Below are positions 5,125-11,790 of a stretch of 44,756 nt of DNA, piece by piece. The stretch covers positions 1-44,756 of the forward strand of contig JAQUNZ010000012.1 of NCBI GenBank assembly GCA_028717345.1. The letters run 5' to 3'. Each line of letters starts with the position of its first letter. Within the stretch, counting starts at the first letter, position 1. The translations under genes and the position numbers were made by a program. The DNA comes from Candidatus Methanoperedens sp. (lineage in GTDB: Archaea > Halobacteriota > Methanosarcinia > Methanosarcinales > Methanoperedenaceae). Below the pieces are notes generated by a model that made no database searches, had not been told where the DNA came from, and saw only the letters and a program-made list of their open reading frames with translations.

Positions 5125-8100
5125 ATGCTTGATGATGAGTATTCACTGGATTATTTCAAAGAGAATGGCTTCGTGCGAAAAACGTGCCCGAAGTGTAAAA
5201 CGAACTTCTGGACAAGAGATGCAGATACAGAGTTCTGCGGAGACCCGCCCTGCGTTTCATACTCATTCATCGGCGCGCCTGTATTCAAAAAAGAATATGA
5301 CATATCATCCATGCGCGAGGCATACCTGTCATTTTTCGAGAAGCACGGGCATACGCGGGTAGATCGCTACCCTGTCATTGCGCGCTGGCGCGACGATATT
5401 TACCTGACCATTGCTTCGATAGCTGATTTCCAGCCATTTGTGACATCGGGGCTAGTCCCCCCGCCCGCAAACCCGCTCACCATCTCGCAGCCCTGCATAC
5501 GGCTTGATGACCTTGACGCGGTGGGAAGAAGCGGCAGGCATCTCACCACATTCGAAATGATGGCTCACCACTGCTTTAATTCGCGCGGGAATGAGATATA
5601 CTGGAAGGACAGGACTGTGGAACTATGCGATACCCTTCTTGCTGACCTCGGATGCGATCTTAATGCTGTGACCTATAAGGAAAATCCATGGGCAGGCGGA
5701 GGCAACGCAGGTCCAAGCGTCGAGGTTATGGTTGGAGGTCTTGAGCTTGCCACTCTTGTATTCATGGACTTAAAACAGGTGAAGGGAGGCTCAATTGAGA
5801 TAAAAGGCGAGACATACGAGAAGATGGACAATTACATCGTGGATACGGGTTACGGTCTTGAGAGGTTCGTGTGGGCGTCCAAAGGCTCGCCTACGATATA
5901 CGATGCCGTGTTCCCGAAGATAGTTAATGAACTCATGGACCTTGCAGGCATCGAGCACTCGATAGATAATCCAGAATATGCCAGGATGTTCTCGCAGAAT
6001 GCGCGCTTTGCAGGCGTTATGGATATCAGCGGGCAGGCAAACCTGCTCCAGTTGAGGAAGAAGGTCGCGGATACCATTGGCACAACTGTTGAGAAACTCC
6101 AGAAGCTCATGGTGCCTGTGGAGACAGTATATGCCATCACTGACCATTCAAGATGCCTTGCGTTCATGCTGGGTGACGGCATCATCCCGTCCAACGTGAA
6201 GGCAGGCTACCTCGCAAGGCTTGTGCTTCGCCGGACGCTTCGCCTGATGAAAGAACTGGACATAAGGGAACCGCTTATCGAGATCATTGAGATGCAGATA
6301 AAGAACTTCCCCGAATACCCGGAGTTTCGGGAGCGCCTTGACACAATCAGGGAGATCGTGGCGCTTGAAGAGGAAAAATACGCTGATACCATAGAACGCG
6401 GTACAAAACTTGTGAAAAAGACGGCGCTTCATTTCAAGGATAAAAAGGAAAAAATGCCTCTTGGTGAATTGATCCAGCTTTACGACACTCACGGTATCCC
6501 GCCTGAGATCACAAAAGAGGTGGCAAAAGAGGCTGGTGTTGAGGTTGAGCTTCCTGATACGTTCTATTCTCTTGTGGCAAAGAAGCACAGCAAGGCGCAA
6601 GATGAGGAAACTGAGGGACTTTCGCTTGATCTTCCGCTCACGCGCAGGCTGTATTACGAGGATTCAGAACAGACAGAGTTTACGGCAAAAGTGCTCGAAG
6701 TTATTGAGAACAGGATAATCCTTGACCGAACATTGTTTTATCCTGAAGGCGGAGGTCAGCCTGCAGACCATGGTACTTTATCAATGGAGGATTATGTTGC
6801 GAATGTTGCTGATGTCCAGAATATGAATGGTGTCATAGTGCATGAGACTGATTCAGATATTGGATTTAAGAAAGGGGATACCGTGAAAGGGAGAATTGAT
6901 TGGGAGCGACGCCTTGCCCACATGAGGCATCACACTGCCACGCACATCGTGAACGAGTCTGCGAAATCAGTGCTTGGAAAACACATCTGGCAGACCGGCG
7001 CGCAGAAATCTACGGACAGGGCAAGGCTCGACCTCACACATTATAAGCGAATTACTGATGACGAGTTCAAAGAGATCGAACTGCTGGCGAACAGGGCAGT
7101 TATGAAGAACCAGCCGGTGCATATCGACTGGATGGACAGGATCGAGGCTGAAAAGAAATACGGGTTCGTGCTGTACCAGGGCGGCGTGCCTCCGGGAAGG
7201 GAGATACGCATCCTGCGCGTGGGAAGCGATGTGGAAGCATGCGGAGGGACGCATGTCTCGAATACAGGGCTTATCGGACCTATAAAGCTCATAAAGACAG
7301 AGAGGATACAGGACGGCGTGGAGCGTATCGAATTCTCTGCTGGCGAGGCTGCTGTGAAGAGGGTACAGGAGAGGGACGAACTGCTGAACAAGGCTTCTGA
7401 TGCGCTGCGTGTTTCGCCGGAGCACTTACCTGACACTGTCAACCGCTTCTTTGATGAATGGAAAGAATTGAAGAAAGAGAATGAGCGTCTTAAAGCTGAA
7501 CTTGCGGAAGTTAGGGTAAAGGCGATGATGGGTGATGCTGTTGAAATAAATGGCTTGAAGGTGCTTTCAACGAAGCTCCCGCATGCAGATGTAGAGGAGC
7601 TTATCAAGGCTGCCACGGAGTTCAGCAAGAACGATGAGGTAGTTGCAATTCTTGCAAGTGAATCTGGCGGCGTGAAAATAGTGGTGGCAGCAGGCGCGCG
7701 CGCACAGAAGATGGGCGTGAACGCTGGGGTGATGGTGCGCGAGTTGTCAAAGCTCGTGGGCGGAGGCGGAGGAGGGAAGCCGGGAATAGCGCAGGGTGGG
7801 GGGACTGATATAGCGAAAATCGATAAGATGCAGGCTAGAGGAGTAAATTGGTTGAAAGCAAAATACCAACCACGAGATTTTCACTCGCAACAGGATATAA
7901 TAGAGTTTGTAAGAAATTCAGAAGATTATAATCCCAGCAAAGAAAAGTTTAATCAAGCTGAAGTTCTTAATATTTTCAATACATCTCTACAAAAGACATG
8001 GCTGGTTTCAACTAATGAGAGGATGTATTGTATTTTAGATGATACTGCAGAAGCAAAACCACAATTAAGGTGGTCAATTCCGAAAAGGGATCTAATTGAT

Positions 8101-8265
8101 GGTAATAAAGTATCCATCGAGATTAAAACACGGGAATATAAGGAGAAAACTGGCTATGTTGATATTGGACCAAAACACCACGGTTGGCTATATAGTAAAA
8201 GATTATTTGATAAATTTGCCATTGAAGATAGTATCAAAAATATGATAACAAAAACTATGCTATAA
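5125..8265 (+). CDS. alaS: alanyl-tRNA synthetase with unusual C-terminal extension
   Basis: Charges tRNA-Ala with alanine. The archaeal-type N-terminus has a Cys-rich segment (CPKCKTNFW ... CGDPPC). The editing-domain metal motif is present as HHTATH (around residue 602) and CGGTH (residue 706), so mischarge editing should work. The oligomerisation/C-Ala region with GGGGGGKPGIAQGGG ends near residue 900. Archaeal AlaRS usually stops close to this point. Here the frame continues for about 143 residues from 7834, with AT-rich codons and a sequence that is not AlaRS-like (motifs KTWLVSTNERMYCILDD, RWSIPKRDL, YVDIGPKHHGWLYSKRLF). This looks like a fused extra domain. tRNA-Ala(GGC) lies 3.5 kb downstream. 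Confidence 0.95.
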   Translation: MLDDEYSLDYFKENGFVRKTCPKCKTNFWTRDADTEFCGDPPCVSYSFIGAPVFKKEYDISSMREAYLSFFEKHGHTRVDRYPVIARWRDDIYLTIASIADFQPFVTSGLVPPPANPLTISQPCIRLDDLDAVGRSGRHLTTFEMMAHHCFNSRGNEIYWKDRTVELCDTLLADLGCDLNAVTYKENPWAGGGNAGPSVEVMVGGLELATLVFMDLKQVKGGSIEIKGETYEKMDNYIVDTGYGLERFVWASKGSPTIYDAVFPKIVNELMDLAGIEHSIDNPEYARMFSQNARFAGVMDISGQANLLQLRKKVADTIGTTVEKLQKLMVPVETVYAITDHSRCLAFMLGDGIIPSNVKAGYLARLVLRRTLRLMKELDIREPLIEIIEMQIKNFPEYPEFRERLDTIREIVALEEEKYADTIERGTKLVKKTALHFKDKKEKMPLGELIQLYDTHGIPPEITKEVAKEAGVEVELPDTFYSLVAKKHSKAQDEETEGLSLDLPLTRRLYYEDSEQTEFTAKVLEVIENRIILDRTLFYPEGGGQPADHGTLSMEDYVANVADVQNMNGVIVHETDSDIGFKKGDTVKGRIDWERRLAHMRHHTATHIVNESAKSVLGKHIWQTGAQKSTDRARLDLTHYKRITDDEFKEIELLANRAVMKNQPVHIDWMDRIEAEKKYGFVLYQGGVPPGREIRILRVGSDVEACGGTHVSNTGLIGPIKLIKTERIQDGVERIEFSAGEAAVKRVQERDELLNKASDALRVSPEHLPDTVNRFFDEWKELKKENERLKAELAEVRVKAMMGDAVEINGLKVLSTKLPHADVEELIKAATEFSKNDEVVAILASESGGVKIVVAAGARAQKMGVNAGVMVRELSKLVGGGGGGKPGIAQGGGTDIAKIDKMQARGVNWLKAKYQPRDFHSQQDIIEFVRNSEDYNPSKEKFNQAEVLNIFNTSLQKTWLVSTNERMYCILDDTAEAKPQLRWSIPKRDLIDGNKVSIEIKTREYKEKTGYVDIGPKHHGWLYSKRLFDKFAIEDSIKNMITKTML

Positions 8266-8367
8266 TCGGCTAAAAAACATAAAAATACTTTCAACCCGCT
8301 TGGCAAGCCGTTATAAATCCCAAATGGCCATAATCTCCTAAAGGCAGAATATATAATAACATGAAAC

Positions 8368-8377
8368 ATATATAAAG
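8368..8377 (+). promoter_or_regulatory. putative TATA box of the 8.4-10.5 kb cassette
   Basis: CATATATAAA lies about 60 nt before the preferred ATG of the first cassette gene and follows the alaS stop. It is a good archaeal box A candidate, suggesting the cassette has its own promoter. Confidence 0.4.
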
Positions 8378-8433: not shown

Positions 8434-9474
8434 ATGCGTGAAATCAAGACTCTTGGCGACCTGAAAGAAAGATTGCAGGCAGGATTTGAAAATAACGAAG
8501 AATCCTTAGAGATATTCGGAAAAACATACTCAACCCAGCTTAAAGCATATCTTATAGAGAGTAATCTACCCTTAACAGACGTTGGTTGTCCTGAAGGGAA
8601 TTGGAGAAAACTTGACGATTCTGTCGGCTGGTATGGTAACATAGATGGAGACCTCTCAAATACATTATTCCTGGATTCGACAAGAGACCGTGTCTGGATA
8701 ATATACAGTCTCATGGATGCAACGGAATCAGACTTTTTTATGGGTAAATGGCTTGAGAGGAAAGGATTAGATAGATGCTGGTTATCCAGAAATCATCTCT
8801 TACACTGGGAAAAAAAGGAATCCTGGAGCCAGAGAGGTTTGGGTTTAAAGTTTTCTGATGGTCTTTCTCCTGATGAGGAAAATGCCGCTAATTTCAGTCT
8901 GAAAGCATACTATGGAGCAAACCGATTAATTAAAGGTCTGGACCGGGTTCTTAGCGAAGCAAGAGAGGAATTCGCCATCTACAGCGCAAGATGGCAGAAA
9001 AGAACCGAAGGTGAGGTTGTGCTATCTTCAGAGTGGTATAGCAATGGTAAAGCCACGATAAACAGGGCGCTGGATGTTGATGAGGCTTTGATCTCGGTTG
9101 CTGAGATGGCAAACCGCTATGCAGATTCCCTAAAAGAAGCCAACGAACTTCGTGAGAAGACCATGGGTGCTTTCGAACTGGATTTCAGCCAGGAGATCGA
9201 TCTTGATGCTTTTTCAAAGAAGGTGGCGACAGGAACGGGTGATATGAAGCTGTGGCTAGTTGAAACCGAATCCGAGGATGATTTCAAGAGATTCAGAGGC
9301 GTGGATTTGCATACGTGGGATCGCATTTTGATGGATGTTGGACCTGACTTTGCATATCTTACTGTTCCAGGCAAAGGATGCATCAATGCCGCGCCAAGAA
9401 TAGCGACCTTGCAGGGTGAAGATAATGCAGGAAAAACGTCCATTTACCATGACGGAGTGGAAGTATTTGCCTGA
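8434..9474 (+). CDS. uncharacterised protein, first gene of three-gene overlapping cassette
   Basis: I do not recognise this protein of about 346 residues. It is soluble, acidic and Trp-rich, with no signal peptide or membrane segment. Visible blocks are GNWRKLDDSVGWYGNIDGD, a central helical region (NRLIKGLDRVLSEAREEF and EMANRYADSLKEANELREK) and a C-terminal block around DLHTWDRILMDVGPDFAYLT. The frame is open from a GTG at 8413; ATG 8434 is preferred because GGTGA sits 8 nt upstream. It overlaps the next gene by about 50 nt, suggesting translational coupling. The context (between alaS and a tRNA gene, AT-rich) suggests accessory DNA. Confidence 0.72.
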   Translation: MREIKTLGDLKERLQAGFENNEESLEIFGKTYSTQLKAYLIESNLPLTDVGCPEGNWRKLDDSVGWYGNIDGDLSNTLFLDSTRDRVWIIYSLMDATESDFFMGKWLERKGLDRCWLSRNHLLHWEKKESWSQRGLGLKFSDGLSPDEENAANFSLKAYYGANRLIKGLDRVLSEAREEFAIYSARWQKRTEGEVVLSSEWYSNGKATINRALDVDEALISVAEMANRYADSLKEANELREKTMGAFELDFSQEIDLDAFSKKVATGTGDMKLWLVETESEDDFKRFRGVDLHTWDRILMDVGPDFAYLTVPGKGCINAAPRIATLQGEDNAGKTSIYHDGVEVFA

Positions 9475-10321
9475 AGCTGATTATCGAATTGCCCTATGGC
9501 GCAATACCATCCAACTGTTCCATGAAATCAAAAAGCCCAATTTCATAGGCCCTTTCAAAGCAGCAGGATTCAATTATGTGGTAGATCGACCACTTCTGAC
9601 AAAACAGGGTGAACAACGTCAACCTGATATAATAGCGAGTGGAGAAACTGGCTGGCTGGTGCTGGAAATAACCGCAAATCAAAAATCCAAGGAATCACAG
9701 CTTGATAAATACAAGACTATTGATCCACGTTATCTTGGTAATTATGGACTTTTTCCTCATGGAAGTTCCCCTGATATCATAAGCAGCCGATTTGATTTTG
9801 TGGATGACGGTTCCTTTTGTCAGATTTTCGTAAAGGATTTCTTTAACTTGAAAAATGAAGGACAAATAGAAAATCAACATCTAAAGACTGAACTAATCAA
9901 AGCGAAAGAAGCGAGATTAGATTTAAGAAAACTTCCAGAAATCCCGATCACTTTATTGCCAGAAATGAAAAACCAGCAGGAGATCCGTCGAGGTCTGATA
10001 GAAATAGTCATGCAACTGTTTGCGCCTAACTGTGTTGGAAAGACTCCTATTCAAATGGTAGATGAAGGATTGGAGAGACTAATTGACAAGATAGGAATTC
10101 CTGAAAAGCATGCTCTTATGGATAGAGTAAAGTACCAGATGAATATACTGATTGACAATCACCTTTCCGGTTACCTTGAATTCAAAGACAATACCTATAG
10201 GGCTACTGAAAAATTTAAACAGCATCACAAGACATTAGAATTTGTTGCATCGAGATTGAAAGAATGGGCTGGACCGAGCCCGCAAAAAACATTACAAGAT
10301 GAAAGATTCTATGAAAAATAA
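9425..10321 (+). CDS. possible PD-(D/E)XK-like protein, second cassette gene
   Basis: Uncharacterised protein of about 298 residues. Near residues 60-95 it has RQPDIIASGETGWLVLEIT, followed by QLDKYKTIDPRYL. This resembles the core of restriction-endonuclease-like folds: Pro-Asp, a strand, then Glu-x-basic, then Gln plus helix. Here the last core position is ExT rather than ExK, so catalysis is uncertain and the fold assignment is inference. A helical second half includes EGLERLIDKIGIPEKHALMD and YQMNILIDNHLSGYLEF, possibly winged-helix-like. Starts GTG 9416, ATG 9425 and ATG 9449 are all possible. It overlaps the upstream gene by about 50 nt and the downstream gene by 23 nt. Confidence 0.7.
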   Translation: MQEKRPFTMTEWKYLPEADYRIALWRNTIQLFHEIKKPNFIGPFKAAGFNYVVDRPLLTKQGEQRQPDIIASGETGWLVLEITANQKSKESQLDKYKTIDPRYLGNYGLFPHGSSPDIISSRFDFVDDGSFCQIFVKDFFNLKNEGQIENQHLKTELIKAKEARLDLRKLPEIPITLLPEMKNQQEIRRGLIEIVMQLFAPNCVGKTPIQMVDEGLERLIDKIGIPEKHALMDRVKYQMNILIDNHLSGYLEFKDNTYRATEKFKQHHKTLEFVASRLKEWAGPSPQKTLQDERFYEK

Positions 10322-10553
10322 TAATGAACCTGTAATTGACGGGTTTCACCGGCGACTTGCCGAATATAAGATGATGGATAAAACATTTCGAGATCGGTAT
10401 AAAATGGACTTTAATGAGTTCAAGAAAAAAAAGGTTGTAGAAAAATCCGGTCATTCATTTGATGTTGAAGAGGATTATTGTGATTGGGAACTCGCTCTTG
10501 ATGGGATTAAAACAATTACGGGTGAACTTAAGAAGATAGCAAAATATTCATGA
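10299..10553 (+). CDS. small antitoxin-like protein, third cassette gene
   Basis: An 84-residue soluble, highly charged protein with the layout MMDKTFRDRYKMDFNEF followed by EDYCDWELALDGI. From memory this resembles small archaeal proteins often found beside toxin-like genes, so an antitoxin or adaptor role is possible; that is unverified. It overlaps the preceding gene by 23 nt, which argues for one operon of three proteins. Its stop lies inside one arm of an inverted repeat (10550-10610), exactly where composition switches from AT-rich to GC-rich. Confidence 0.65.
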   Translation: MKDSMKNNNEPVIDGFHRRLAEYKMMDKTFRDRYKMDFNEFKKKKVVEKSGHSFDVEEDYCDWELALDGIKTITGELKKIAKYS

Positions 10554-11745
10554 TTACCTCTGGGCGCGGCGCCTGGCGCTTTATTTCAGCCTTGGCGCCG
10601 GGGTAATCATAATCTCACATTTGGTTTTCTCTTATTTTGGCTTCCTGCACACCGATGTGGACAGCGCCAGATACATGCTCAGCGCCCTGATTCAGAGCGA
10701 GGCTGCTATCGTGGCTCTTGTGGTGACGCTGAGCCTTGTGGCGGTGCAGCTTGCGGCGCAGTCGTATTCGGCGAGGGTGATCGAGGTGTTCAGGAGGGCG
10801 CCGGATTTGTGGATACTGATGGGGATTTACGGGATTGCGATTTTTTATGGGCTGGGTGTGCTGAAGCTGATTGAGAATCCGCTTGTGGGCAGGCTGTCGA
10901 ATCTTGAGGGGCATGTTTCGTTTGCTTATTATCTTGGTGTTTTTGCGTTTGTGGCGCTGGTGCCGTATATGTGGAATACTTTTGAGATGCTGAAACCTTC
11001 AACTGTAATTAATATTCTGGCAAATAAGATAACAAAGGAAAATATTAAAAAGACATTTGGTTTTAAAGGCTATAGTTACGTCGTTCATAAGACTATAGAA
11101 GAAAAATTTGAAAGGGATCCGCTTCAACCGATTATCGACATCGCACGCGGTTCATTGATGAAATATGATTATGAAACTGTAAAAATTGGATTGGCAGCAA
11201 TTAGCAAAAGGACAACGACTCTTTTCGAAAATGAGACTTCAAAGGATTCTTGGATGGGAAGAGAAGAAGATATAATATCTCTACATGTTTTTTCTCATTA
11301 TGAGGGGCTTGCAGAACTAGCAGCAAGCAAAAATAATGAAGATTCAACTCTGGCAGTAATATTTGTTCTTGAAAAAAATGGGATAACAGCGGCCAATAAA
11401 AAACTTAAAAATGCAACCACAAATGCAATTAGATCGCTTAAAAAAATTATAATATTTGCAGATGAACAAAAATTCAAAAAAGCTGAACTTAAAGCAAATG
11501 AATCTGTCCTAAAAATTTATGAAAAAGCAACTAAACAAGAACTCGAATTACCAAAAGATATATTGTTTCCGTTCAGAAAAAGTGGAAAAGGTATGGCTAA
11601 AGAAAATCACGAAGAACGCGAACAGCAAACCGTAGAATCACTTGAAAAATTAATAAAAATATCCGAAGTACAAGTTAAAACAACACAACAAGTAGTAGAA
11701 TATCTCGAGAAAATAGATAAAGCTCTCAGCAAGACCCAAAAGTAA
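10546..11745 (+). CDS. membrane protein with helical cytoplasmic tail (DUF2254-like), start unclear
   Basis: The N-terminal part has three or four hydrophobic segments (ALYFSLGAGVIIISHLVFS, AAIVALVVTLSLVAVQLAA, LWILMGIYGIAIFYGLGVL and SFAYYLGVFAFVALVPYMW), with the second resembling DUF2254 membrane proteins. From about base 10990 a long helical, Lys/Glu-rich tail follows. The first hydrophobic segment starts before the earliest usable codon (TTG 10621): the frame is open back to a TAG at 10537 without ATG, GTG or TTG. Either an ATT (10546) is used or the 5' end was lost when the AT-rich cassette joined. The gene is a compositional mosaic: GC-rich 10555-10990, AT-rich afterwards. Function unknown. 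Confidence 0.7.
   Translation: MHDYLWARRLALYFSLGAGVIIISHLVFSYFGFLHTDVDSARYMLSALIQSEAAIVALVVTLSLVAVQLAAQSYSARVIEVFRRAPDLWILMGIYGIAIFYGLGVLKLIENPLVGRLSNLEGHVSFAYYLGVFAFVALVPYMWNTFEMLKPSTVINILANKITKENIKKTFGFKGYSYVVHKTIEEKFERDPLQPIIDIARGSLMKYDYETVKIGLAAISKRTTTLFENETSKDSWMGREEDIISLHVFSHYEGLAELAASKNNEDSTLAVIFVLEKNGITAANKKLKNATTNAIRSLKKIIIFADEQKFKKAELKANESVLKIYEKATKQELELPKDILFPFRKSGKGMAKENHEEREQQTVESLEKLIKISEVQVKTTQQVVEYLEKIDKALSKTQK
10550..10610. repeat. inverted repeat at composition boundary
   Basis: ATGATTACC (10550-10558) pairs with GGTAATCAT (10602-10610), extendable by a U-G and a C-G pair. Inside, GGCGCC at 10568-10573 pairs with GGCGCC at 10594-10599. The structure covers the stop codon of the 84-residue gene and the first transmembrane codons of the next one. 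No T-tract follows, so it is not a typical terminator. Confidence 0.5.
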
Positions 11746-11763: not shown

Positions 11764-11790
11764 TTCGTGTACTATGCGAGTCATCCTGAT

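Follow-up and report, generated by a model that had tools for sequence, protein, structure and literature searches.

Auxiliary PD-(D/E)XK nuclease effectors have been described for BREX and BR systems, and BrxHII helicases contain REase domains that are inactive and for which a role in sensing has been proposed (both PMC12839542). RexA, RdgC and the kinetochore proteins IML3/CHL4 belong to a single DNA-binding fold according to the RexA structure paper (PMC11077077), and some proteins of the RNase LS (RnlA) family carry a fused TBP-like domain (PMC3710099). Little is known about defence in anaerobic methanotrophs and methanogens. Here we analysed a 44,756-nucleotide stretch of Candidatus Methanoperedens sp. 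DNA (the window), in which two genes, w1 and w2, form a previously unnamed and undescribed module that probably has a defensive role. We found no paper on this pair in the open-licence literature, and its only library match is a phage-database cluster of unknown function, phrog_22469, which w1 matches across 291 residues (E 3.8e-13). The pair nevertheless spans several archaeal classes, a Methanocaldococcus jannaschii megaplasmid and bacteria.

Layout of the locus and the place of the third gene

The initial annotation had described three consecutive overlapping genes as one cassette. Three open reading frames do lie on the same strand downstream of alaS (Table 1), but only w1 and w2 constitute a unit, a conclusion that we consider close to certain; w3 is mostly unlinked from them elsewhere.

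Table 1 Features of the w1/w2 locus in the window
Feature	Coordinates	Strand	Description
Promoter region of the w1/w2 pair (putative)	8350-8376	+	TATA-like, AT-rich; TATATAATAA at 8350-8359, ATATATAAA at 8368-8376
w1	8434-9474	+	346 aa; probable nucleic-acid-binding subunit and partner of w2; its fold weakly resembles TBP and RexA
w2	9449-10321	+	290 aa; predicted PD-(D/E)XK fold with a helical, probably winged-helix C terminus; 26-nt overlap with w1
w3	10299-10553	+	84 aa; outside the w1/w2 module; predicted orphan, truncated at its N terminus, from a separate two-gene TA-like family

Candidate starts of w2 lie at 9416, 9425 and 9449. The overlaps first given for the three genes were about 50 and 23 nt; the second, between w2 and w3, stands, whereas the first is obtained only from the ATG at 9425. 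Homologues favour the ATG at 9449 (MTEWKYL..), which is a recurrent w2 start among them, and the resulting 26-nt overlap with w1 is found exactly in five other loci, including distant relatives (L058, L059, L060, L061 and L063). The TATA-like block upstream of w1 was rightly noticed: it is retained in one related genome (G007), largely in a second (G031) and in the remnant of the locus in a third (G012), and it would serve as the promoter of the pair. The three genes had also been called AT-rich, which fits w2 (38.5% G+C) and w3 (33.7%) but not w1 (44.1%), whose composition is close to that of the whole window (44.2%). The alaS gene itself carries a C-terminal extension of ~135 aa (7858-8262) past the ~911 residues that it has in common with relatives such as G012; the extension is also present in G031 and reached no Pfam or NCBIfam family at the cut-off.

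The position of the trio between alaS and a tRNA gene holds on the alaS side. On the other side, the trio and the tRNA-Ala gene (at 11790) are not immediate neighbours: a DUF2254 membrane-protein open reading frame (10621-11745) follows w3 and precedes the tRNA. This frame has no ATG: it extends back to a stop at 10537 within w3, with a TTG at 10621 as its sole start, and may therefore be 5'-truncated at the w3 junction. A DUF2254 gene also lies downstream of a pair on a Halobacterium plasmid. We take its presence as a coincidence rather than as a sign of a fourth member, because DUF2254 homologues are widespread (27 of 40 relatives), no other fetched locus yielded a tblastn match at E 1e-3, and the frame in the window lacks an ATG.

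The suggestion that all three genes act as one defence or toxin-antitoxin (TA) cassette can draw on the w2/w3 overlap, on the w2-tail/w3 junction, which is also present in G012, and on the dN/dS of w3 (0.16-0.21). Linkage in other genomes speaks against it: w3 was absent beside the other w1/w2 loci examined, and 21 of 60 relatives carry members of its family, some of them weak matches and most of them with no w1 or w2 alongside. Full-length homologues of w3 are ~20-25 residues longer at the N terminus, and several of them overlap or adjoin a different gene of 115 aa that is absent from the genome of the window; in one relative (G033) the two sit directly after alaS. By the refuting condition named in the initial annotation, a lack of linkage elsewhere, the trio is largely refuted, and we regard it as very improbable, whereas the w1/w2 pair survives the same comparison. 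As first noted, w3 looks antitoxin-like, but it belongs to another module and is a predicted truncated orphan of an unrelated TA-like two-gene family. For the same reason of linkage, w3 being separate from w2 in most genomes, we rejected w2 and w3 as a TA cassette.

Pairs of a w3 homologue and its 115-aa partner (L125:5556-6190; L029:1154-1809) were seen in ~10 of 60 relatives, with stop codons in several copies. The family was unmatched in Pfam and NCBIfam; we therefore do not claim a TumE-type toxin for the partner, and a DUF559 match of w3 (E 0.052) fell short of the cut-off and was not used.

Distribution, co-inheritance and decay of the pair

Side by side, w1 and w2 were found in 35 loci. 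They occur in Methanoperedens, ANME-2, ethane oxidisers, Methanophagales, Methanomicrobiales, Thermoplasmata and Methanosarcina, in other lineages of the phylum, haloarchaea among them, on the M. jannaschii megaplasmid and on a Halobacterium hubeiense plasmid; the bacterial pairs lie on two Bacillota plasmids (Lysinibacillus and Metabacillus). Protein trees of w1 and w2 from the 35 loci recover the same main groups, with several forks of the w2 tree unresolved. Both genes are under purifying selection, with a dN/dS of 0.08-0.11 for w1 and 0.17-0.24 for w2. One pair, on a 3-kb contig binned with Cloacimonadota (L053), clusters with archaea in the trees and is probably a mis-binned archaeal contig.

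The distribution is patchy: of the 393 species sampled from the phylum, 22 have w1 (one a weak partial match). In the Methanoperedens family the pair lies 3' of alaS (the window, L017 and L024), and in two ANME genomes it is flanked by carA and carB, names that were read from the sequences (L018, 2518-11617; L020, 1915-8441); there, w2 ends only a few bases upstream of carB. In G012 an internal deletion has fused the w1 promoter and first codons to the end of w2, leaving w3 in place, and a second, distant pair is found elsewhere in the genome (L022). Between alaS and this scar lies a 218-aa open reading frame (L124:648-1304) that appears cyclase-like by eye and was unmatched in Pfam and NCBIfam. 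Apparent transposase genes interrupt w2 in G312 (L088), and w1 stands alone, with w2 lost, in L047 and L093. The patchy spread, the deletion in G012, the split gene in G312 and the losses of w2 fit together as the behaviour of a module that is dispensable and was acquired by horizontal transfer. We set aside a viral origin despite the PHROG match of w1: no relative of w1 turned up, at the sensitivity used, in phage records searched with tblastn or in three scans of IMG/VR.

Two overlapping genes, patchily distributed and carried on plasmids, are also what a TA-like unit would look like, in which a toxic DNase, w2, is kept inactive by w1 and freed upon infection or gene loss. The loci in which w1 persists without an intact w2 (L047, L088 and L093) can be read both ways, as they fit the loss of a toxin but also show w1 enduring without the protein that it would restrain. 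More at odds with this explanation, w1 is large, is more conserved than w2 and has invariant polar residues, unlike a simple, fast-evolving antitoxin. We consider a TA-like unit unlikely.

Predicted structures of w1 and w2

Neither w1 nor w2 reached a Pfam, NCBIfam or PADLOC family, in line with the initial annotation, which could not name a system. The AlphaFold model of w1 (pLDDT 87.2, pTM 0.88) contains repeated strand-strand-long-helix units. Profile comparison detected no internal repeat. All of its Foldseek matches were weak, to TBP, RnlA, RexA (E 0.096) and CENP-N, the counterpart of CHL4, and none reached E 0.001 against the PDB. Membership of the TBP or RexA families was rejected, as profile comparison supports neither (hhalign probability 1-3% for TBP, with no match to Pfam PF00352, and 0.2% for RexA). 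In 42 homologues, 12 residues of w1 are invariant (K37, E42, D113, W116, G205, T208, Y229, D291, H293, C316, N318 and R322), so w1 probably has a role beyond the inhibition of w2. On the basis of its model, w1 is a probable nucleic-acid-binding partner.

The PD-(D/E)XK-like core ascribed to the middle protein is borne out by its AlphaFold model (pLDDT 89.9, pTM 0.84), by Foldseek and by the motif in distant relatives. The better Foldseek matches were mainly PD-(D/E)XK nucleases (probability up to 0.97, none with E < 0.001 in the PDB), including R2 endonuclease domains, AF1548, MGME1, the small subunit of R.BspD6I, Hjc, Can2/Card1 and McrBC. The motif first recognized as RQPDII..VLEIT is real, with P59 and D60 (numbering from the ATG at 9449) nearly invariant; in the model a strand starts at D60, a second strand runs to E73-x-T75 and a helix begins after K81. 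The C terminus is helical with a short beta hairpin, and is probably a winged-helix. We consider a PD-(D/E)XK fold for w2 highly likely from these predictions.

In several relatives of w2 the catalytic-type (D/E)xK motif is intact: PD..(D/E)CKS in haloarchaea, PD..ECKS in M. jannaschii and Methanosarcina, D..EIK in Lysinibacillus and PE..ECK in Metabacillus. The Halobacterium hubeiense pair WP_059058662.1/WP_059058665.1 is one with the canonical motif. The sister clade of the window has D[IL]S and nearly all of the clade of the window has E[IL]T, so that in the latter Thr occupies the position of the motif lysine and nuclease activity is not assured. K81 may be a replacement catalytic lysine, or the domain may be inactive. 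If inactive, w2 in this clade could serve as a sensing or binding fold, with the pair acting as a regulatory or accessory element in other systems; the inactive REase domains of BrxHII helicases, with their proposed sensing (PMC12839542), would be a parallel. Several observations make us doubt this reading, which we rate about as improbable as a TA-like unit: both acids and K81 are conserved (K81 nearly invariantly), w2 is under purifying selection, and many copies of the pair, including that of the window, stand alone.

Defence neighbourhoods and relation to known systems

The initial annotation had asked whether the three genes recur near defence genes. The trio as such is not conserved, but some w1/w2 pairs do adjoin such genes. 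PADLOC identified BrxF and BrxC beside w1 in L047, PglX and BrxC in L090, PglX, PglZ and BrxL in L102, and, on either side of the Methanoculleus pair (L049/L092), DruE-like, DrmMI and DrmD-like genes in a mixed Druantia/DISARM-like arrangement (L092:3776-18703). In L098, genes for DUF499, DUF1156 and a PLD-helicase lie directly upstream of the pair on the same strand, and PLD-helicase genes are also near the pair in L096, L100 and L057.

Defence genes were present in 6 of 15 pair regions compared with 1-2 of 14 controls drawn from the same set of genomes, a borderline enrichment (one-sided p 0.05-0.13). For three of the six positive regions the call depends on domain hits, since the PADLOC tally gives no member names. 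One control region (L123) was left out: it follows L102 immediately on the contig that they share and apparently continues the BREX island of L102. The pair of the window had no defence neighbour, and the lack of a PADLOC match for its w1 and w2 indicates that neither is a known BREX, DISARM or Druantia component.

Another possibility is a non-defence role in DNA repair, recombination or replicon maintenance. The fold relatives of w2 include Hjc, MGME1 and Bax1, those of w1 include RexA, itself likened to RdgC, several copies of the pair are plasmid-borne, and the copy in L063 adjoins the gene for the Hef repair nuclease. Such a role sits poorly with a pair that is rare, patchy and readily lost even inside one genus, and with the defence systems among some of its neighbours; we judge it a little less probable still than a TA-like unit or an inactive w2.

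Since some archaeal pairs lie beside known antiviral systems, w1/w2 is probably a system, not yet characterised, that acts against viruses or plasmids. We marginally favour a mobile two-component nuclease-fold module for defence, in which w1 would recognise some state of a nucleic acid and w2 would do the cutting; defence as the function of the pair is, in our judgement, about evenly balanced, and we have little confidence in any exact trigger or target. The overlap of the reading frames suggests that the two genes are probably translationally coupled and that their products probably act as a complex. Through its TBP/RexA-like domains w1 would bind nucleic acid, sensing invader DNA or a replication intermediate, and w2 would cut DNA, either that of the invader or that of the cell in abortive infection. 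The module could operate on its own against viruses or plasmids, or could assist adjacent BREX, DISARM or DUF499-type loci as an auxiliary effector. More tentatively, w1/w2 could represent a new two-component type of immunity, mainly archaeal but also on Bacillota plasmids, in which a TBP/RexA-fold sensor with a conserved DxHxxD / CxNxxxR signature would read a nucleic-acid state specific to the invader and permit a dedicated PD-(D/E)XK nuclease to act; in methanogens and anaerobic methanotrophs the active-site lysine of this nuclease would have moved to another position. We hold this to be possible, although doubtful.

If the pair is a defence system, annotation pipelines would gain a new, easily recognised two-gene unit. 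The w2 series also offers natural material for studying the loss or movement of the active-site lysine in PD-(D/E)XK proteins.

Among described systems, w1 resembles TBP-like domains (TBP and the N-terminal region of RnlA) in its strand-strand-long-helix units, in its weak Foldseek matches and in a GKxxx-type segment that aligns weakly, but the likeness is not significant by Pfam or profile. The weak matches to RexA and CENP-N recall the lambda RexA/RdgC fold of RexAB exclusion; profile comparison with RexA does not bear this out, and the partner of w1 is a nuclease-fold protein, not RexB. The auxiliary PD-(D/E)XK effectors of BREX and BR (DUF499) systems are similar in that some w1/w2 pairs adjoin such loci, and the DUF499/DUF1156/PLD-helicase neighbourhoods resemble type-2 BR systems in gene content (PMC12839542). 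The pair differs from these effectors in also standing alone, and a term search of that paper did not find it described. The core fold and motif position of w2 are those of PD-(D/E)XK nucleases such as restriction endonucleases, Hjc, MGME1 and Can2/Card1, and its distant relatives have PD..(D/E)xK, several of them also QxxxY. What sets w2 apart from these nucleases is the lack of a family-level match, the Thr in place of the motif Lys in the clade of the window and an obligate-looking partner in w1.
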